Part shown: positions 14,204 through 32,297 of the stretch, in pieces
Layout: each line of letters opens with the position of its first letter
Position numbering within the stretch: the first letter of the stretch is position 1
Origin: Thermoleophilia bacterium
GTDB taxonomy: Bacteria > Actinomycetota > Thermoleophilia > Gaiellales > JAICJC01
DNA length: 33,326 nucleotides
NCBI GenBank assembly: GCA_025927685.1
Contig: JAICKX010000025.1
Coordinates: forward strand, 1-33,326
Direction: 5' to 3'
Program-made: the position numbers and the translations under genes
The notes under the pieces: model-generated
Databases searched by the model: none
What the model was told of the DNA's origin: nothing
What the model saw: only the letters and a program-made list of their open reading frames with translations

Positions 14204-15609
14204 CCGGCCTCGACGGGGTGGGCCTCGAAGCGAAGCTTGGAGAGGCGCAGGTCGGTGGGGATCTCGGTCGGGTACTCGCCGGTCAGGCACGCCCGGCAGA
14301 AGCTCCCGGCCGGCCGGTTCGTCGCGTCGGTCAGCCCCTCCAGCGAGAGATAGGAGAGCGACGTGGCGCCCAGCCGCTGGCGCACCTCCTCGATGGAGCG
14401 GCCGGCGGCGATCAGCTGGCCCTGGTCGGCCATGTCGATCCCGTAGAAGCACGGCGAGACGATCGGCGGCGCGGAGACGCGCAGGTGCACCTCGGTGGCG
14501 CCGGCCTCGAAGAGGAGCTGCACGAGCTGGCGCGTGGTCGATCCGCGCACGATCGTGTCGTCGACGACGACCACCCGCCGGCCCTCGAGCACCGTGCGCA
14601 GGGCGTTGAACTTCAGCTTGACCCCGCGGTCGCGCAGGCCCTGATCCGGCTGGATGAACGTGCGGCCGACGTAGCGGTTCTTGACCAGGCCCTCGCCGTA
14701 GGGGATGCCGCTGCGCCCGGCGTAGCCGACCGCGGCCGGGGTGCCCGAGTCCGGGACGCCGATCACGACGTCGGCCTCGGCCGGCGCCTCCTCGGCCAGG
14801 CGCGCGCCCATCCGGCGGCGGGCGTCGTGAAGGGCCTCCCCCTCCATGGTGGAGTCGGGGCGGGCGAAGTAGATGAACTCGAAGATGCAGAGCGAGCCGC
14901 CGTTGCGGTCGACCGCCTGGCGGAAGCGGGCCCCCTGCTCGTCGATCACGACCAGCTCGCCGGGCCGGAGCTCACGCTCCAGCCGCGCGCCGATGAGGTC
15001 GAGCGCGCAGCTCTCGGAGGCCAGGACCCAGGCGTCGTCGAGCCGGCCGACGACGAGCGGCCGGATCCCGTCCGGGTCGCGGAACCCGGCCAGCGCCCGC
15101 TCCGAGAGGACGACCGCCGCGAACGCGCCCTCGACGTCCGCCATCGTGTCGGCGACGGCGTCGGCCAGGTCGTCGGACGGGTGCTGGGCGATGAGCGCCG
15201 CGATCACCTCGGTGTCGGACGTGGACTCGAGCCGCACCCGCCGCTCGCGCAGCTCGGAGCGAAGCTCGGACGTGTTCGTCAGGTTGCCGTTGTGCCCGAG
15301 AGCGATCGCGCCGTGCTGCGAGTGGCGCACGATCGGCTGCGCGTTCTGCCACACCGTGGAGCCCGTCGTCGAGTACCGGGCGTGCCCGATCGCCATGTGT
15401 CCCGAGAGCCCCGAGAGGCGCGGCTCGTCGAACACCTGGCTCACGAGCCCCATGTCCTTCATCGCCATCACCCGCGTGCCGTCCGAGACGGCGATGCCGG
15501 CGCTCTCCTGGCCGCGGTGCTGGAGCGCGTAGAGGCCGAAGTACGTGAGCCGGGCGACGTCGCGGTCGTGGTCGCCGGGCGGGTCGTAGATGCCGAACAC
15601 GCCGCACAT
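14200..15609 (-). CDS. purF: Amidophosphoribosyltransferase (glutamine PRPP amidotransferase)
   Basis: This 469-residue enzyme makes phosphoribosylamine from PRPP and glutamine, the committed step. It begins MCGVFGIY, so Cys2 becomes the N-terminal nucleophile after Met removal; there is no propeptide of the B. subtilis kind. Glutaminase blocks include HRGQESAGI and GHNGNLTN. The PRPP loop is VVVVDDTIVRGST (346-358). Cysteines at 241, 387, 438 and 441 match the four [4Fe-4S] ligands of the B. subtilis-type enzyme, so an oxygen-sensitive cluster is likely. The ATG shares one base with the purL stop (TGATG). AMP/GMP feedback is expected from the family. Confidence 0.97.
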   Translation of the reverse strand: MCGVFGIYDPPGDHDRDVARLTYFGLYALQHRGQESAGIAVSDGTRVMAMKDMGLVSQVFDEPRLSGLSGHMAIGHARYSTTGSTVWQNAQPIVRHSQHGAIALGHNGNLTNTSELRSELRERRVRLESTSDTEVIAALIAQHPSDDLADAVADTMADVEGAFAAVVLSERALAGFRDPDGIRPLVVGRLDDAWVLASESCALDLIGARLERELRPGELVVIDEQGARFRQAVDRNGGSLCIFEFIYFARPDSTMEGEALHDARRRMGARLAEEAPAEADVVIGVPDSGTPAAVGYAGRSGIPYGEGLVKNRYVGRTFIQPDQGLRDRGVKLKFNALRTVLEGRRVVVVDDTIVRGSTTRQLVQLLFEAGATEVHLRVSAPPIVSPCFYGIDMADQGQLIAAGRSIEEVRQRLGATSLSYLSLEGLTDATNRPAGSFCRACLTGEYPTEIPTDLRLSKLRFEAHPVEAG

Positions 15610-17783
15610 CAGCCGGCATCCTCCCCGAGGGCGTTCGGAATGGCGTTCTCGTAGAGCTCGGTTGCGTCGGCGAGGCCGATCGACGCTCCGGCGGCCGAGA
15701 TCCGGTCGCCGCCCACGGTGCCGACCTGCCGCAGCCGCAGCCCGTTCGCCAGCTGCTCGAGCTCGGCGAGGTCGCCGGGACGCACCGAGACGACGGCCCG
15801 GCCGTCGCCCTCGGCGAAGGGGTCGGTGAGCTCGGGCGCCTCGACGCCGACCGCCCCCAGGATGGCCGACTCGGCGACGGCGACCGCGACGCCGCCGTCG
15901 GACACGTCGTGGGCGCTTCGCAGGAGCCGCCGCTCGGCCGCGGCGGCCAGGAACTCGTGCAGGCGGCGCTCGGCGGCCAGGTCCGGCTCCGGGATCCGGC
16001 CCTCCGTCTTGCCGTCGACGACCCGCTGGTAGGCCGAGCCGTCGAGCGCGGCCGGCCCGTCGCCGGCGACGAGCACGACGTCTTCCTCCTCCCGGAAGGC
16101 GGCGCCGACGGCGAGCGAGGCGTCGTCGAGGACGCCGACGACGCCGACCACCGGCGTGGGGTGGATCGGCCGGCCGTGGTGCTCGTTGTAGAGCGAGACG
16201 TTGCCCGAGACGACGGGCAGCCCCAGCGCCTCGCAGGCCAGCGCCATGCCCTCGATCGCCTCGGCCAGCGCGTAGCCGACGTCGGAGGTCTCGGGGTTGC
16301 CGAAGTTGAGGCAGTTCGTGACGGCGGCCGGGCGGGCGCCGGTGCAGGCCACGTTTCGGGCCGCCTCGCAGACGGCGCTCATCCCGCCGCGGCGGGGATC
16401 GAGCGAGGTGCGCCGCCCGTTCCCGTCGAGCGAGATCGCGACCGCGCGGTCGGAGGGGGTGAGCCGGACGACCGCCGCATCGCCGCCGGGGCGGACGACG
16501 GTGCCGGACCCGACCAGGTGGTCGTACTGGCGGAACACCCACCGCCGGCTCCCGATCTCCACCGACCCCAAGAGCGCCCGCAATGAAAAATTGGGGTCAG
16601 ACCCCGTTTTTTCAGGGAGGGGGTCGTCGCGGAGGCGGGCCGGTCGCGTGCGCTCCACCTCGTAGCGCGGGCAGCCGTCGGTGAGCGCGCTCACCGGGAT
16701 GTCGCCGACCAGCTCGCCCTCGTGGAACGCTCGCAGGTGGCCGGAGGCGGTGATCTCCCCGATCGCCGTCGCGTCGACCTCCCAGCGGCGGCACGTCTCT
16801 TCGACCTCGGCCCAGCGCCGGGGCGCGACCACGGCCGCCATCCGCTCCTGCGACTCCGAGATCATGATCTCGAACGGCTCCATGCCCGGCTCGCGGAGCG
16901 GCACTCGCGAGAGGTCGACGTCGATCCCGACGGCCCCGCTCGATGCCATCTCGGCCGTCGACGACGCGAGCCCCGCGGCGCCGAGATCCTGCAGCGCCTC
17001 CAGGAGGCCGCGGTCGAGCAGCTCGAGCGTGCACTCGACCAGCTTCTTGCCGGTGAACGGGTCGCCGATCTGGACGCTCGGGCGCTTGGCCGCCGAGTCC
17101 TCGCCGAAGCCCTGCGATGCCAGGACGCTCGCGCCCCCGATGCCGTCGCGGCCGGTGCGCGAGCCGTAGAGCACGACCAGGTTGCCCGGTCCGACGGCCC
17201 GGGCCGAGGTCAGCCTGTCGGCCGGGAGCAGTCCCACGCACATCGCATTCACAAGGCAGTTGTGCTCGTAGGCGGGATCGAACTCGACCTCGCCGCCGAC
17301 GGTGGCGACGCCGACGCAGTTGCCGTAATGGCCGATCCCCTCGACGACGCGCGAGAAGAGGTGGCGCTGGTGCTCGGAGCCGAGATCGCCGAAGCGCAGG
17401 GAGTCGAGGATCGCGATCGGCCGCGCCCCCATCGCGAAGATGTCGCGGAGGATGCCGCCGACGCCGGTGGCGGCGCCCTGGAAGGGCTCGACCGCCGAGG
17501 GATGGTTGTGGCTCTCGACCTTGAGCGCGACCGCGAGCCCGTCGCCCACGTCGATCACGCCGGCGTTCTCGCCGGGCCCCTGGAGCACCCGCTCGCCCGA
17601 GGTGGGGAAGCGGCCGAGCAGCGGGCGGGAGTGCTTGTAGCCGCAGTGCTCGCTCCAGAGCAGCGAGAACACCGCGAGCTCGAAGTCGTTCGCCTCGCGC
17701 TCCAGGAGCTCGTGGATGCGCTCGTGCTCCCCGTCGGTGAGACCGAGGGCGCGATGGAGCGGCTGTGGCGTGACGGCGGTCAA
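15609..17783 (-). CDS. purL: Phosphoribosylformylglycinamidine synthase subunit PurL (small form)
   Basis: This 724-residue synthetase subunit converts FGAR to FGAM with ATP and ammonia, working with PurS and PurQ encoded further right. The catalytic region shows SEHCGYKHS (44-52) and ESHNHPS (90-96), and the second half repeats the fold (ARNVACTGARPAAVTNCLNFGNPE). The start is TTG at 17783, giving the usual N-terminus before LHRALGLTDGE; there is no Shine-Dalgarno sequence and no other start codon nearby. Oddly, residues about 390-400 (EKTGSDPNFS) come from a 31-bp AT-armed palindrome lying in frame between conserved blocks. The frame stays open and all motifs remain, so the gene looks functional. 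It is the first gene of purL-F-M-N-H. Confidence 0.96.
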   Translation of the reverse strand: MTAVTPQPLHRALGLTDGEHERIHELLEREANDFELAVFSLLWSEHCGYKHSRPLLGRFPTSGERVLQGPGENAGVIDVGDGLAVALKVESHNHPSAVEPFQGAATGVGGILRDIFAMGARPIAILDSLRFGDLGSEHQRHLFSRVVEGIGHYGNCVGVATVGGEVEFDPAYEHNCLVNAMCVGLLPADRLTSARAVGPGNLVVLYGSRTGRDGIGGASVLASQGFGEDSAAKRPSVQIGDPFTGKKLVECTLELLDRGLLEALQDLGAAGLASSTAEMASSGAVGIDVDLSRVPLREPGMEPFEIMISESQERMAAVVAPRRWAEVEETCRRWEVDATAIGEITASGHLRAFHEGELVGDIPVSALTDGCPRYEVERTRPARLRDDPLPEKTGSDPNFSLRALLGSVEIGSRRWVFRQYDHLVGSGTVVRPGGDAAVVRLTPSDRAVAISLDGNGRRTSLDPRRGGMSAVCEAARNVACTGARPAAVTNCLNFGNPETSDVGYALAEAIEGMALACEALGLPVVSGNVSLYNEHHGRPIHPTPVVGVVGVLDDASLAVGAAFREEEDVVLVAGDGPAALDGSAYQRVVDGKTEGRIPEPDLAAERRLHEFLAAAAERRLLRSAHDVSDGGVAVAVAESAILGAVGVEAPELTDPFAEGDGRAVVSVRPGDLAELEQLANGLRLRQVGTVGGDRISAAGASIGLADATELYENAIPNALGEDAG
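16584..16614. repeat. Palindromic element, copy 1, in frame inside purL
   Basis: This 31-bp near-perfect inverted repeat has arms TGAAAAA and TTTTTCA, a two-base mismatch (TT opposite GT) and the core GGGGTCAGACCCC centred on the A at 16599. Its A/T-rich arms stand out in very GC-rich coding DNA. The same 13-bp core is at 29537-29549 with different but still complementary arms. That pattern, a fixed core with compensating arms, is expected of a dispersed REP-like or MITE-like element. No transposase is nearby. Translated within purL it adds about ten residues to a linker. Confidence 0.8.
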
Positions 17784-26046: not shown

Positions 26047-27585
26047 TCAGTCGCCTGCCGGGATCGGCGGCGGCTCGGGCGCCTGGGGCTGCCCCTCGTA
26101 CTTCGGATCCTCCACCTTGACGCGGTACCAGTAGAAGAACACGTAGCTCAGGAGGATCGCCCACCCGATGAAGAAGTACACCTTCGTGTCGTTGTTGTCG
26201 AGCAGCGCGTTCGGAAGCGACGCCTCCACCAGCCCGCCGTAGAGCCAGATGATGAAATAGCTCGCGGCGAGGAAGAGGGCGACGTACTTCATGAACTCCG
26301 GCAGCCGCACCGGCCGGCGCATGTCGGGCCGGTACCTGCGGAGCAGGTAGTAGCCGACCAGGACCGGGAGGAACGACGCCGTGTAGCCGACGTTCGAGAG
26401 CGTGTAGATCTCGACCGCGCCGCCGGTGAAGACGAGCAGGATCGAGCACACGACGTTGAAGCCCATCGAGAAGCCGGGCACGCCGTGCTTGTTCACCGTC
26501 GCGAAGATGCGCGGGAACTGGCCGTCGATGGCCATCTGGTAGACGGCGCGCGCCGACCCCATGATGGCGTTCAGGACCGACAGGGCGAGCGCCACCACCA
26601 ACATGATCGAGATCGCCCAGTCGAGCCAGTTCGCCCCCGTTCCGAACACCGCCGAGGCGAAGTTCGAGAAGATCGTCTTCGGGTCGACGTTGGCCGGGTT
26701 CGAGAGCTTCGACGCGCCGAACACGATCACGAAGCTGAGCGGGATCATCGTGTAGATGAAGAGCCCGTACAGCCCCTCGAGGTTCATCGCGATCTTGGCG
26801 TCCTTCTCCGGATCGCGGCACTCGCCGATGTAGCAGGCCGCCGCCTCCATCGCGATCACGTTCCAGGTGAGCAGGAAGGCGAAGGCGATGTAGATGGTGA
26901 GCCAGCCGTGGCCAAGCGAGTTCGTGAAGAAGCCCGACCCGTCGAGCTGATGGAAGCCGCTCAGGTTGCCGAAGTCGCGCGACGACGGCTTGAAGATGGG
27001 CAGCACCGCCAGCAGCGTGAGCGGGACCATCGAGAGCAGCCCGAGCACGGTCGCGAACATCGCGCCGAGCCGGATGCCGTACCAGGCCGGGATGAACACG
27101 AGCAGGATCCCGACGATCGCGATGGCGATCGTCCAGTACGCGATGAACGTGTGGATCGGCGTGATGCCGCTGCTCGTGTCCAGGCTGAACTTGTCGGCGA
27201 TGTAGAACGACGCCAGGATCATGTTGAGCGGCGCCACCGGGAACCAGCCCAGCCAGTAGGCCCAGGCGGTGAACCCGTTCACGTGCTTGGCGAACCGCGG
27301 CCACTTGTCCTTGTAGGCCACGTACGCGTATGACGGTGAGCCGCCGGTGCGCTCCGGCATCATCGCCGAGAGCTCCGCGAGGATCAGGCAGAGCAGGTAG
27401 CCCGTGATGGTGATGAGGACCATGAGAGGGATCGCCGCTGCGCCGAGCGACGTGACCATCACCGGCGCGATGCCCGTCACGAGGATGGTGCCGGCAAGCC
27501 CGATGACGAACGCCCCCCACCAGTTCGTCTCCCGGCTGAGACCACCACCCTCGTAGTCGGCTGCACCCGAATCGACCGATGCCAT
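26047..27585 (-). CDS. APC-family amino-acid/polyamine permease
   Basis: This 512-residue membrane protein has about twelve transmembrane helices and hydrophilic ends. The first helix holds NWWGAFVIGLAGTILVTGIAP, matching the unwound substrate-binding helix 1 of APC transporters, and AELSAMMPERTGGSPSYAYVA in helices 2-3 matches the family E-x-x-x-x-x-P-x-x-G-G-x-Y motif. It imports an amino acid or related amine with protons or by exchange; the substrate is unknown. The ATG at 27585 has a perfect Shine-Dalgarno sequence, AGGAGGT, just upstream. The C-terminal tail is Pro/Glu-rich. The neighbouring cNMP/CBS/DUF294 regulator and UspA protein may tune it. Confidence 0.92.
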   Translation of the reverse strand: MASVDSGAADYEGGGLSRETNWWGAFVIGLAGTILVTGIAPVMVTSLGAAAIPLMVLITITGYLLCLILAELSAMMPERTGGSPSYAYVAYKDKWPRFAKHVNGFTAWAYWLGWFPVAPLNMILASFYIADKFSLDTSSGITPIHTFIAYWTIAIAIVGILLVFIPAWYGIRLGAMFATVLGLLSMVPLTLLAVLPIFKPSSRDFGNLSGFHQLDGSGFFTNSLGHGWLTIYIAFAFLLTWNVIAMEAAACYIGECRDPEKDAKIAMNLEGLYGLFIYTMIPLSFVIVFGASKLSNPANVDPKTIFSNFASAVFGTGANWLDWAISIMLVVALALSVLNAIMGSARAVYQMAIDGQFPRIFATVNKHGVPGFSMGFNVVCSILLVFTGGAVEIYTLSNVGYTASFLPVLVGYYLLRRYRPDMRRPVRLPEFMKYVALFLAASYFIIWLYGGLVEASLPNALLDNNDTKVYFFIGWAILLSYVFFYWYRVKVEDPKYEGQPQAPEPPPIPAGD

Positions 27586-27671
27586 ACGACCTCCTCTCAC
27601 ACGACAGCGAGCTGTACGTGGCAAGTGAACCATGCGGGCCGGTCGGAGCGCAACCCCGATTTCGGCGCAAT

Positions 27672-29507
27672 TCACATCCCCAGTGGCACGAAGCGGCTCA
27701 GGGCGTGCTGGGCCTCCGCCACGGCCTTGAACGCGGTCTTGAGCTGCTCCCGCGTGAGCGGCGGCAGTGCTCCGGGATCGATGCGGTTGTCCGGCTCGGC
27801 GCCGGCCTCGGCCTGGGCGGCCTGGTGCTCGAGCCGAAGGCGGGTCATGAGCGCGAAGGCCTCGAGCAGGGCGGCGACGGTGTCCGGCGCGAGCGTCCCC
27901 GCGTCCTCCGCCGCGTGCAGGCGGCCGACCGTGCTCGAGATCGTGACGCCGGCCTGGAGCGCGTGGAACCGGGCCAGGTTCGCGATGGGAACCACGCCAC
28001 GGCGCTTCAGGTCGATCATGTCGTCGTCGTCGAGGGTGAGCCGGCTTCGGAACCCGAGCGGCGGCGTGAAGTCGGTGGCGGTCCGGGCGAGGCGGCGGAT
28101 GAAGTCCGGGTGCTTCGGCGCCTGCCGCTCGATCTCGACCAGGGGGCGCACGATGTCGAGCCCGCCGACCACCTGGCGGAAGTCGAACGCGACCGCGGCC
28201 CGCACGAGATGGCTGCGGTCCGGGTTCTCGAGGCAGTCGTGGAACACCCGCACCCACTCCGACTCCGTGAGCCGCCACTGGCGGTTCCGGGCCAGCACCT
28301 CCGCGTTGTCGGCGCCGAAGCCGCACCGGGCCAGGGCCGTGTTCACCTCGGCCGCGAGCTCCGCGAAGTACGCGTCGACCTGCTCGCCGCCCGGGTCGGC
28401 GTAGGCGAGCGCGTTGTCCTGGTCGGACGCCAGCGTCGCCTCGCGGCGGGCGGTCGAGCCGAGCGCCAGCCACGACCAGGCCACCGGAGCCGGCCCGCGC
28501 TGGGCGGCGACCAGCTCGATGAGGCGCGTCGTGGCGGTGTCGGACTGGAGCGCGATCACCCGCCCGACGTCGAGCGGCGAGACGCCGGCCCGGATCAGGC
28601 TCACGACCATCTGCGGCAGGTGGCGGGCCGACTCGACGACCTCGTCGACCGTCGCGGCGTGGGCGATCGAGCGCCGCAGCGCGAACGGCGTTCGGCTCTC
28701 GATGTACATCAGGTCGGTCGCGGTGACGACGCCGAGCGGCGTCCCGCCGGAGTCGACGATCGGCAGGTGATGGATGCCGGCGTCGAGCATGTCGATCATC
28801 GCGTCGACTGCCAGGCTCTCCGGCGCGAACGTCTTGGCGGGCGCGACCATGATGTCGCCGACCGGAGTCGTGCCCGGCAGGTCCTCGGCCACGAGCTTGC
28901 GGCGCAGGTCGGAGTCGGTGACGATCCCGAACCCGTCCCGGAGCTGGACGAGGACGCACGAGACGTCGGCCGCGGCCATCAGCCGGGCGGCGTCGACGGC
29001 GGCCGTGTCGGGCGGGCAGACCGCGACCGGCCGGTGCACCAGCGACCCCAGGTGCGCGGTGCGCTGCTCGGCCTGGGCGTGGGCCACGTGCCCGGTGCGC
29101 ACCAGCCGCTCCCGCAGCGAGCTGGCCACGAACTGCACGCCGGCCGTACTCGAGAGCACCCGCTGCGCCGCCTCGGAGCGAAGCAGCAGGCAGACCGTGT
29201 CGTCGCGCGCGACCACATCGAACGCGGGCGCCATGCCCGAGAGCAGCGAGGGGTGCCCGAACGCCTCCCCCGTCTCGAGGGCGTCGATCGTGTCCTCCTC
29301 GTGGCGCAGCTCGACCGTCCCCGACCGGACGACGTAGAGGCCCTCGGACGGGCTGCCGTCCTCGGCCAGGATCGTGGCGCCGGCCGGGTACTCCCGTACC
29401 TCAGCGGCCGCGGCGGCCCGCTCCAGCTCCGGCTCTGGAAGCCCGTTGAACGGGGGGAACCGGCGCAGGAACTCGGCCGAGCGGGCGGCCTGATCGGCCT
29501 CGAGCAT
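27672..29507 (-). CDS. Regulatory protein: cNMP-binding, CBS pair, DUF294 nucleotidyltransferase
   Basis: This 611-residue cytoplasmic protein has four parts. Residues about 15-130 are a cyclic-nucleotide-binding-like beta barrel (PAGATILAEDGSPSEGLYVVRSG). About 155-275 are two CBS motifs (VCPPDTAAVDAARLM, then IHHLPIVDSGGTPLGVVTATDL). About 290-430 form a DUF294 nucleotidyltransferase domain with LALGSTARREATLASDQDNAL, where GS and D-x-D are the catalytic signature. The rest is the DUF294 C-terminal helical domain. This architecture resembles GlnD-like signalling proteins often found beside transporters; here it precedes an APC permease gene. The ligand and target are unknown. TACGAT lies nine bases before the ATG, and a palindromic repeat lies just upstream. 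Confidence 0.9.
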   Translation of the reverse strand: MLEADQAARSAEFLRRFPPFNGLPEPELERAAAAAEVREYPAGATILAEDGSPSEGLYVVRSGTVELRHEEDTIDALETGEAFGHPSLLSGMAPAFDVVARDDTVCLLLRSEAAQRVLSSTAGVQFVASSLRERLVRTGHVAHAQAEQRTAHLGSLVHRPVAVCPPDTAAVDAARLMAAADVSCVLVQLRDGFGIVTDSDLRRKLVAEDLPGTTPVGDIMVAPAKTFAPESLAVDAMIDMLDAGIHHLPIVDSGGTPLGVVTATDLMYIESRTPFALRRSIAHAATVDEVVESARHLPQMVVSLIRAGVSPLDVGRVIALQSDTATTRLIELVAAQRGPAPVAWSWLALGSTARREATLASDQDNALAYADPGGEQVDAYFAELAAEVNTALARCGFGADNAEVLARNRQWRLTESEWVRVFHDCLENPDRSHLVRAAVAFDFRQVVGGLDIVRPLVEIERQAPKHPDFIRRLARTATDFTPPLGFRSRLTLDDDDMIDLKRRGVVPIANLARFHALQAGVTISSTVGRLHAAEDAGTLAPDTVAALLEAFALMTRLRLEHQAAQAEAGAEPDNRIDPGALPPLTREQLKTAFKAVAEAQHALSRFVPLGM

Positions 29508-29516
29508 CGTGCCGGG

Positions 29517-29522
29517 ATCGTA
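29517..29522 (-). promoter_or_regulatory. Putative -10 box of the DUF294 regulator gene
   Basis: TACGAT on the minus strand ends nine bases before the ATG at 29507. Seventeen bases further upstream lies TCTGAC (29540-29545), part of the palindromic repeat core and similar to a -35 element. Confidence 0.4.
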
Positions 29523-29528
29523 CTCCGT

Positions 29529-29557
29529 GCAACAACGGGGTCAGACCCCGGTGTTGC
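29529..29557. repeat. Palindromic element, copy 2
   Basis: This 29-bp inverted repeat has arms GCAACA (29529-29534) and TGTTGC (29552-29557), one A/G mismatch pair, one extra C/G pair and the core GGGGTCAGACCCC (29537-29549). The core is identical to that inside purL, but the arms differ and still pair. It overlaps the end of the 134-residue membrane protein gene and supplies its TGA (29541-29543). It also lies just upstream of the DUF294 gene, where a -35 would be. Confidence 0.8.
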
Positions 29558-29945
29558 GTCCGTCGTCCTCGTCGTAGGCGGGCGGCACGGGCGATCCGGG
29601 CAGCTGCCCCTGCTTGCTCGCCGCCGCCCGGCCCAGGCGCTGGAACCGGCGCTCGCGCACCGGCGCGTCCTGCACCGGCGCATCCTTGGCCGTGCCGAGG
29701 AGCAGGCCGAAGAGGCCCACGGCGATGGCCATCGCGACGGGGAGGCCGAACGCGATGGAGAAGGGGTCGTCCGCGTGCCCGGTGAGCCGTTCGCTGCCGA
29801 TGACGTACTCGATCACGATCCCGGCCACGAACCCGATGAGTGCGCCCGCTGCAAGGCCGGCGAACTGCCGCCTGCGGCGGTTGTGCTCGCGGCGCGGGCT
29901 CTCGGAACGAAGCGCGGAGCCAGACTGCCGATGGCTGGTCTCCAT
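29541..29945 (-). CDS. Small membrane protein, function unknown
   Basis: This 134-residue protein has a basic, Arg-rich N-terminus (about 1-26), two hydrophobic helices (about 27-47 and 64-84) separated by a short acidic loop, and a polar C-terminal tail ending GRNTGV. I recognise no family. The last few codons and the stop are inside the palindromic element, so the original C-terminus may have been different. There is no Shine-Dalgarno sequence before the ATG at 29945, and a GC-rich hairpin lies between it and fchA upstream. GC-rich third positions and the two clean membrane segments argue for a real gene. Confidence 0.55.
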   Translation of the reverse strand: METSHRQSGSALRSESPRREHNRRRRQFAGLAAGALIGFVAGIVIEYVIGSERLTGHADDPFSIAFGLPVAMAIAVGLFGLLLGTAKDAPVQDAPVRERRFQRLGRAAASKQGQLPGSPVPPAYDEDDGRNTGV

Positions 29946-29956
29946 GCCCGAGGAGT

Positions 29957-29993
29957 GCCCGCGGGCGCTCGATCCAAAACGTGGCCCGCGGGC
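29957..29993 (-). other. GC hairpin between fchA and the small membrane protein gene
   Basis: The ten-base palindrome GCCCGCGGGC occurs twice (29957-29966 and 29984-29993), 17 bases apart, so the copies can pair into a ten-base all-GC stem. It begins at the last base of the fchA stop codon. No T-run follows. It could be a terminator without a U-tract, an mRNA end stabiliser or a protein site. Confidence 0.5.
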
Positions 29994-30577
29994 TAGACCC
30001 GCTCGAGGCGGGCGTAGGCGTCGACCGCCCGCTCGCGGGCGCGCGTCGCCTTGGCGAGCTCGGGCCGGACGCGCTCGAGCCCGGCGTCCGACATCGTATG
30101 CCGCGAGAGCAGGCTGACGTTGAGCTGGGCCAGCGTGGCCGCCGACCGGGCCGCGGCCTCGGCCAGGAGCGCTCCCGCGAGCGCGTCGCCCTCGAGGTTC
30201 CGGTTCCCGGTCTCGGCCATGTCGGCCGCCAGGGTCGCCACCTCGGCGGCGATCCGCAGCATCTGCATCGGGCAGGCGATCGCGCCGGCGACGGCCCTGT
30301 CGAGCTCGAGCGTCCGCTCCACGCCTGGCGCCATCCGCAGCGCCTCCAGCACGACCCCGTAGGCGCGGCCGTCGGCGTGCGCGAGCGACGAGACCTCGAG
30401 TCGAAGTTCGTGCGCCCGGTTTCGCACATGCTCGAGCCCCTTCGCCGAGGCGAACGAGGCCGCCATCTCGACCAGACCGGCCGCCATCGCGCAGGTGACG
30501 GACGCCGCCGCCCCGCCCCCCGGCGCAGGGGTGCGGGCTGCGAGGTCGTCGAGGAACGCCGCGACCGTGGCGGTCAT
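29993..30577 (-). CDS. fchA: Formiminotransferase-cyclodeaminase family protein (methenyl-THF cyclohydrolase-like)
   Basis: This 194-residue all-helical protein belongs to the cyclodeaminase family, which includes FchA, interconverting 5,10-methenyl-THF and 10-formyl-THF, and the formimino-THF cyclodeaminase domain. The signature TPAPGGGAAAS near the start is the conserved TPxPGGGS motif, followed by amphipathic helices. Directly downstream of fhs, the cyclohydrolase role is more likely than histidine breakdown. The start is uncertain. ATG 30577 fits the family; the frame stays open to an ATG at 30646 that would overlap fhs by 26 bp, but the extra codons have A/T-rich third positions. Confidence 0.85.
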   Translation of the reverse strand: MTATVAAFLDDLAARTPAPGGGAAASVTCAMAAGLVEMAASFASAKGLEHVRNRAHELRLEVSSLAHADGRAYGVVLEALRMAPGVERTLELDRAVAGAIACPMQMLRIAAEVATLAADMAETGNRNLEGDALAGALLAEAAARSAATLAQLNVSLLSRHTMSDAGLERVRPELAKATRARERAVDAYARLERV

Positions 30578-30620
30578 GTACGGGTCGGGTGTGCCGTTCG
30601 TGCCCGGCACGGCGACCGGG

Positions 30621-32297
30621 TCAGAAGAGCCCGACGGTTCGTCCATCCTCGTCGATGTCGACGTTGAAGCCGGCCGGCGTCTTGCCGAGGCCCGGCATCT
30701 GCATGATGTCCCCGCACAGCGCCGTCAGGAACCCTGCGCCCGTGTACGGCCGGATGTCGCGCACCGGGATGCGGAAGCCGGCCGGCGCGTTGGCGAGCGC
30801 CGGGTCGGCCGAGAGCGAGAGGTGGGTCTTGGCCATGCAGATCGAGAGCCCGGTCAGGCCGTCGCGGGTGAACTGCTCGATCTTCTGGCGTGCCGCGGGG
30901 AGGAAGTCGACGCCGTCGGCCTTGTAGACCCGCGTTGCGATCTTCTCGATCTTGACGTCGATCGGGTCCGAGTCCTCGTACACGAACGTGAACGAGCTCG
31001 GCTGGTCGCAGGCGTCGGCGACGGCCTCGGCCATCTCGGCGGCCCCCTCTCCGCCCTTCGAGAAGCCCTCGTTCAGCACGGCGGCGTGGGCGCCCTGCTC
31101 CATCGCCAGCTTCTGGACGAGCGCCACCTCCTCGTCGGTGTCGCCCGGGAAGCGGTTCGCCGCGACGACGCACGGCACCCCGAAGCCCTTGGCGTTCTCG
31201 ATGTGGCGGGCCAGGTTGGCCGAGCCCTCCTCGATCGCCCTCAGGTTGTCGGACGCCGAGTTGCGCGGATCGTCCTCCAACCCGGCGTGGTGCTTCAGCG
31301 CCTTCGCGGTCGCGACGACCACGACGGCATCGGGTGCGAAGCCGCCCGCCCGGCAGACGATGTCCATGAACTTCTCCATGCCGAGGTCGGAGCCGAAGCC
31401 CGCCTCGGTGATGAGGTACTCGCCGACCTTGCGGCCGACGAGGTCGGCCACGATCGAGCTGTTGCCGTGGGCGATGTTGCCGAACGGGCCGATGTGCATG
31501 AAGCACGGCTGGCCCTCGAGCGTCTGGATCAGGTTCGGCTTGAGCGCGTCCTTCAGCAGGACCGTCATCGCGCCGGCGCAGCCCATCTGCTCGGCGGTCA
31601 CCGGCGCGCCGTCCACGTCGTAGCCGACCGTGATCGCGCCGATCCGCCTGCGCAGGTCCTGGAGCGACGTCGCCATCCCCATGATCGCCATGACCTCCGA
31701 GGCCGCGACGATGTCGAACCCGGTCTCGCGCGGGATGCCGTGGGTGGTGCCACCCAGCCCGCTCACGATGTTGCGCAGGTGGCGGTCGTTCATGTCGAGC
31801 GCCCGCCGCCACGTGACCCGGTGCGGGTCGATCCGGCACTCGTTGCCGTAGAACAGGTGGCGGTCGATGAACGCGGCGAGCATGTTGTTGGCGGCCGCGA
31901 CCGCGTGGAAGTCGCCGGTGAAGTGCAGGTTCAGGTCCTCCATCGGGACGACCTGCGTGAGCCCGCCGCCGGCTGCGCCGCCCTTGATGCCGAAGATCGG
32001 CCCGAGCGACGGCTCGCGCAGGCACAGGATCGGGCGCTTGCCGATATAGCCCAGCCCCTGCGTGAGCGAGACGGACGTGGTCGTCTTGCCCTCGCCGGCC
32101 TTGGTCGGCGTGATGGCCGACACGCACACGATCTTGGCGTCCGGCGCGTCGGCGAGGCGGTCGATCGCCCCCAGGCTGACCTTGGCCTTGTACCTGCCGT
32201 ACAGGTCGACCTCGTCCTCCTCGAGGCCCATGCCGCGGGCGATGTCGATGATCGGCCGGAGCGTGGCTTCCTGGGCGATCTCGAGGCTTGACTTCAC
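30621..32297 (-). CDS. fhs: Formate--tetrahydrofolate ligase
   Basis: This 558-residue enzyme makes 10-formyl-THF from formate, THF and ATP (or releases formate and ATP in reverse). The P-loop-like TPTKAGEGKTT (63-73) and REPSLGPIFGIKGGAAGGG are the two family signatures. The length matches bacterial FTHFS (about 555-560). The GTG start at 32297 is preceded by AAAGGAG (32303-32309). It sits between a sarcosine-oxidase-type gene and fchA, which suggests handling of one-carbon units from methylated amines. Its product is the cofactor of PurN and PurH. Confidence 0.97.
   Translation of the reverse strand: MKSSLEIAQEATLRPIIDIARGMGLEEDEVDLYGRYKAKVSLGAIDRLADAPDAKIVCVSAITPTKAGEGKTTTSVSLTQGLGYIGKRPILCLREPSLGPIFGIKGGAAGGGLTQVVPMEDLNLHFTGDFHAVAAANNMLAAFIDRHLFYGNECRIDPHRVTWRRALDMNDRHLRNIVSGLGGTTHGIPRETGFDIVAASEVMAIMGMATSLQDLRRRIGAITVGYDVDGAPVTAEQMGCAGAMTVLLKDALKPNLIQTLEGQPCFMHIGPFGNIAHGNSSIVADLVGRKVGEYLITEAGFGSDLGMEKFMDIVCRAGGFAPDAVVVVATAKALKHHAGLEDDPRNSASDNLRAIEEGSANLARHIENAKGFGVPCVVAANRFPGDTDEEVALVQKLAMEQGAHAAVLNEGFSKGGEGAAEMAEAVADACDQPSSFTFVYEDSDPIDVKIEKIATRVYKADGVDFLPAARQKIEQFTRDGLTGLSICMAKTHLSLSADPALANAPAGFRIPVRDIRPYTGAGFLTALCGDIMQMPGLGKTPAGFNVDIDEDGRTVGLF

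Follow-up and report, generated by a model that had tools for sequence, protein, structure and literature searches.

The question raised by this locus is what a 31-nt imperfect palindrome is doing at the junction of two neighbouring genes, and whether it has altered either of them. In the window (the whole 33,326-nt stretch of the Thermoleophilia contig that was analysed), the palindrome occupies positions 29528-29558 on the minus strand, at the junction between an ORF for a 134-residue protein (29541-29945, minus strand; without a Pfam match, and with stretches that look hydrophobic by eye), referred to here as the membrane protein, and the gene for a cNMP-binding/CBS/DUF294/DUF294_C protein (27672-29507, minus strand), whose start codon is 29 nt from the core of the palindrome. 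Read on the minus strand, it consists of CGCAACA cc GGGGTCTGACCCC gt TGTTGCA, with the 13-bp core GGGGTCTGACCCC at 29537-29549 (plus-strand letters GGGGTCAGACCCC) and complementary arms, GCAACA and TGTTGC; folded as RNA, it forms a hairpin of -19.6 kcal/mol (z -3.1 relative to shuffles). A sequence-only reading of this DNA had noticed that the same core recurs with different arms that still pair, and this observation holds: the core GGGGTCWGACCCC is common to the copies at 29537-29549 and 16593-16605, and a search of the window allowing up to two mismatches found no core beyond these two. The second copy (16584-16614, minus strand) lies inside purL (15609-17783, minus strand; AIRS/AIRS_C domains), in a variable linker that it crosses in frame as EKTGSDPNFS, and the length of this linker is equal to that in the relatives G003 and G004, indicating no net insertion. 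In the relatives compared, no clean empty site was found at the DUF294 gene, the membrane-protein gene or purL.

What had the appearance of a one-off regulatory curiosity belongs to a large family of repeats. In the 3.34-Mb assembly that contains the window, the core is present 82 times, where 0.68 occurrences are expected from the base composition of the window and a reversed-pattern control gave none, so that the idea of a chance palindrome has a practically negligible probability. Sorting all 82 copies by their arms gave 25 of a TGAAAAA family, to which the purL copy belongs, 32 of a CGCAACA family, which includes the copy at 29528-29558, 24 with other arms and one cut by a contig end. Averaged over the copies, 6.6 of the 7 arm positions are paired in the TGAAAAA family, 5.8 in the CGCAACA family and 1.6 among the other-arm copies, the high pairing in the two main families being partly built in because the sorting used arm likeness. 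The 24 copies with other arms, of which some form inverted pairs about 50 bp apart, seem to represent an older or a distinct sub-type.

The claim of the sequence-only reading that the stem is kept while the letters of the arms change was supported by an alignment of 15 elements of our choosing, some of which share an arm family and six of which were taken from the window or from loci where no RAYT was in sight. Across the alignment, the core differs at a single base in a single row. In the arms, 87.5% of the cells are paired, compared with 63.3% in shuffles, and 68 cells are doubly changed, compared with 23.4 ± 3.9 in shuffles and 15-24 in slid controls; the number of pairs with change on both sides, 12, is not above that in shuffles (10.2; 51 of 500).

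The family extends to relatives in a patchy manner. The core is present in 28 of 61 genomes (the organism itself and its relatives) and in 84 of 299 genomes of a class-wide draw, for which the reversed control gave 0 or 1 per genome. Two congeners, G001 and G002, carry 225 and 261 exact cores, two genomes from a different genus of the family carry none, and counts thus span 0 to 261 inside one taxonomic family. Despite their many cores, G001 and G002 gave no match to TGAAAAA- or CGCAACA-type arms beside the core, and have GCACCA, CCGCCA and other arms instead; arm repertoires are species-specific. G000, G001 and G002 contain 12, 238 and 28 copies of a sister core, GGGGACWGTCCCC, and the two other family members 0 and 1. 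Many of the GGGGACWGTCCCC sites listed for G001 are pairs about 20 bp apart.

The repeats are linked to RAYT transposase genes. Five Y1_Tnp (PF01797) matches are present in the organism's own assembly, which is 81.5% complete. An inverted pair of TGAAAAA copies encloses one of these RAYTs (on C99), at distances from the domain of 130 nt in front and 346 nt behind; a second (C41) is accompanied by an exact core to one side; and a third (C124) lies between inverted repeats carrying a one-base variant of the sister core. For three of the five, no exact core lies in the vicinity, and a RAYT flanked by CGCAACA arms was not found. Across genomes, we examined 34 of the 91 listed Y1_Tnp matches, 27 in core-bearing and seven in core-free genomes. 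An exact core lies within 500 bp of 11 of the 27 loci in core-bearing genomes, where 0.75 are expected, a count that includes some loci picked after the adjacency had been noticed (G026:C166, G022:C9), and near none of the seven in core-free genomes. Free of this selection is the set of all nine loci at E 0.001 or better in three members of the genus; five of these loci lie 500 bp or less from an exact core. Ten of 12 core-linked loci are flanked by cores on both sides, some of them one base off, and the arms at the bracketed RAYTs are specific to each RAYT (GCACCA, CCGCCA, GGCCACGT, CTTTGCTTT, GATGTTCC, GATGTCAC and GATGCGAC, among others). On a tree of the RAYTs the core label changes 7 times, compared with 11.3 times in shuffles (3 of 500 as low), and the core-associated RAYTs do not form one clade.

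The palindrome at 29528-29558 is very probably a solo member, itself non-coding, of a RAYT-linked repeat family of the TIRYT type, with a Y1/HUH transposase as its likely mover. In RAYT/TnpA-REP systems, the Y1 transposase recognises the repeat as a folded single strand. By extension, a 31-nt hairpin with a near-invariant 13-bp core and sub-family-specific arms would here be read as a folded single strand by a Y1/HUH tyrosine transposase, with the core common to all and the arms supplying the specificity. Here, as in relatives, an intact unit is a transposase gene between two inverted copies. The copy under study sits at a typical site, the 3' end of the membrane-protein gene, with the TGA of its core now that gene's stop. 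The DUF294 promoter, leaderless in appearance, lies shortly downstream of the copy, which shows no sign of belonging to it. We infer that this copy is neutral.

The sequence-only reading had proposed that one element may have reshaped both the C-terminus of the membrane protein and, by way of a -35 element, the promoter of the DUF294 gene, and it was right that the TGA within the core (29541-29543, minus strand) ends the 134-residue protein, the last residues of which, NTGV, are encoded by the element. Such stops are not peculiar to this gene: 5 of the 32 CGCAACA copies supply a stop through the core TGA and 12 of the 25 TGAAAAA copies through a terminal TGA, the RAYT proteins L115, L116 and L161 end likewise in GV-stop, and REP termini are described as often furnishing stop codons in the accessible text of PMC3733652. 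The reshaping of the C-terminus is, however, trivial in extent. The congeneric orthologues, which have no core at the 3' end, terminate in DDLGR (131 residues) and DDVGSER (133 residues), and any shift of the stop caused by the element therefore amounts to no more than a few codons; with a difference of no more than three residues, the core-less congeners come close to what the sequence-only reading had named as evidence against itself, namely orthologues ending at the same residue without the element. The G004 orthologue has 139 residues, and in G002 a core lies upstream of the membrane-protein gene instead. In G001 the stop is followed by GGGGTCAGG, possibly what is left of half a core, or else a coincidence. 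The two genes adjoin in the window, where the element marks their junction; in G001 (L130, G001:C101) they are about 4.3 kb apart, and by eye the intervening DNA includes a sensor kinase-like gene and a secreted-protein-like gene; a rearrangement at the repeat between them is possible.

On the promoter side, the distance of 17 nt on the minus strand from TCTGAC in the core to the -10-like hexamer TACGAT (29517-29522, minus strand) was as claimed, and a TGAC-bearing hexamer 16-17 nt from TACGAT is what speaks for a -35 element. TCTGAC, however, agrees with TTGACA at 1 of 6 positions in the 17-nt register; CTGACC, one base along, agrees at 4 of 6 with a 16-nt spacer, and a consensus promoter scan of 27500-30700 gave no promoter-like pair. 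The DUF294 ATG is preceded by TACGAT at 9 nt, and in the congeners by the counterpart TACCAT at 8 nt (G001) and 6 nt (G002); since TANNNT peaks 12-13 nt before the start across 181 called genes, the DUF294 promoter looks leaderless. Cores precede DUF294 in both congeners as well, where they form an inverted pair belonging to another sub-type and adjoin a different upstream gene, but the distance from core to -10-like hexamer is 14, 9 and 16 nt in the three genomes. The same variability was seen at large: 60 core-TANNNT-RTG matches (free gap 10-40 nt) in three genomes are spread broadly, with 43 at 10-24 nt and a tail to 40 (15, 16, 12, 6, 6 and 5 at gaps of 10-14, 15-19, 20-24, 25-29, 30-34 and 35-40 nt), and show no sharp peak and none at 16-18 nt, and hence no fixed -35 geometry. 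Copies do adjoin such promoters. In 9 of the 15 cases with a core 15-45 nt ahead of a called start, TANNNT falls in the interval (our own count, from a list of 79 copies), and TANNNT starts 12-15 nt before the start in 39 of 181 called genes; on these small numbers, and against an unmatched control, such promoters are more frequent beside copies than before genes in general. Taken with the orthologue lengths, this leaves a joint remodelling of protein and promoter improbable.

A further reading, that the palindrome is a selected regulatory or chromosome-organising site (the site of a dimeric protein, a terminator or an mRNA-stabilising hairpin), would account for the almost invariant 13-bp palindrome, the strong hairpin and the bias of copies to gene 3' ends, and in the TGAAAAA family runs of A and T adjoin the G+C-rich stem. 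Of 79 copies, 30 lie between convergent, 28 between co-directional and seven between divergent genes, and the remaining 14 are within called genes or at contig ends (convergent versus divergent, p = 0.0002), and several of the within-gene copies are near the gene end. These orientation counts, like the list of upstream copies, rest on 79 of the 82 copies and on gene calls from a home-made, non-standard codon-usage caller; arm types and stop counts cover all 82. A selected site is nevertheless hard to reconcile with a copy number that runs from none to 261 within one family, with copies that flank transposase genes and bear transposase-specific arms, and with copies inside purL and inside a RAYT gene, and the copy at 29528-29558 has no T run, a terminator scan of the region having given none. 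We consider this reading unlikely, marginally more so than the remodelling just discussed; single copies may have a secondary role.

Among known systems, the mobile repeat preferred here fits the terminal inverted repeats (TIRs) of TIRtrons, its nearest counterpart in the literature, which are described in the accessible text of Di Nocera et al. 2013 (PMC3733652) as Y1 tyrosine transposase genes between inverted repeats, many with GGGGWSAS, the TIRs being in some cases self-complementary and dispersed as singles, dimers or groups. The GGGGTCAG in the core fits GGGGWSAS, Y1 genes are bracketed, as the C99 RAYT is by its two inverted TGAAAAA copies, and solo copies are dispersed (82 here). Differences from that text are that published TIRs are 'moderately abundant', whereas genomes of this one genus hold 82-261 exact cores, and that here a full 13-bp palindromic core is combined with exchangeable arms, a comparison made with the text of that paper. 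The short dispersed palindrome, the two inverted copies around a RAYT gene and the inverted pairs elsewhere also recall REP/REPIN elements (PMC2817692, as far as its accessible text goes), but these have a constant GT[AG]G foot, and here the centre and not the foot is conserved: by eye, no constant GTAG or GTGG stands outside the arms in 79 copies or at the RAYT flanks. In-frame copies in genes and repeat-supplied stop codons are shared with intragenic palindromes (RPE, intragenic REPs; accessible text of PMC3733652), but a constant CGTC tag is lacking; by eye, CGTC abuts the arm in the copy at 29528-29558 and some others, not in most of the 79. The repeat thus falls outside both the GTAG and the CGTC definitions.

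The transposases look like members of a subclass for which, in the accessible text of PMC6006769, no REP-like sequence is reported nearby: subclass 2.1 (TnpAY1, equal to RAYT group 1), which has a C-terminal helix-turn-helix (HTH) after the Y1 domain and includes 20 of 26 TIRYTs. HTH matches were found on 4 of the 6 RAYTs scanned (best E per protein at most 0.0012; one just over the curated cut-off, the rest under it), so that membership of this subclass is presumptive; in contrast to that survey, the repeat here does accompany RAYTs, without a GTAG foot. PMC3733652 and PMC6006769 were the only relevant papers found for GGGGWSAS, TIRYT and TIRtron in the open-access library searched, where no paper joining Thermoleophilia with a REP term was found, nor either core string in the searched text.

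As a mobile repeat the family is ordinary; the interesting part is an invariant core with transposase-specific arms, in several phyla. A scan of named genomes with a 31-nt pattern gave 36 stretches; 31 belong to a single Prevotellaceae MAG, and Massilia, Porphyromonadaceae, Pseudomonadota, Patescibacteria and Amnibacterium records contributed one each. A RAYT was found in two of the 36, between core clusters in the Prevotellaceae MAG and between cores in the Patescibacteria MAG. One could speculate, with rather less than even confidence, that GGGGTCWGACCCC and its sister GGGGACWGTCCCC constitute a cross-phylum recognition centre of a broad RAYT/TIRYT group, in which the arms would act as a private address covarying with each transposase, several non-cross-reacting populations could share a genome, and the in-frame TGA, which also ends some transposase genes, would make landings at gene ends harmless. 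The division into core and arms yields a rule, open to direct test, by which Y1 transposases would distinguish their own repeats from those of others. In the Prevotellaceae MAG (RUG378, L173), arrays of cores with TGAAAC-type arms recur about every 44 bp on both flanks of the RAYT, and the Patescibacteria RAYT gene (L161, 2266-3018) contains an internal in-frame core (VGSDPTF) and takes its GV-stop from a downstream core.
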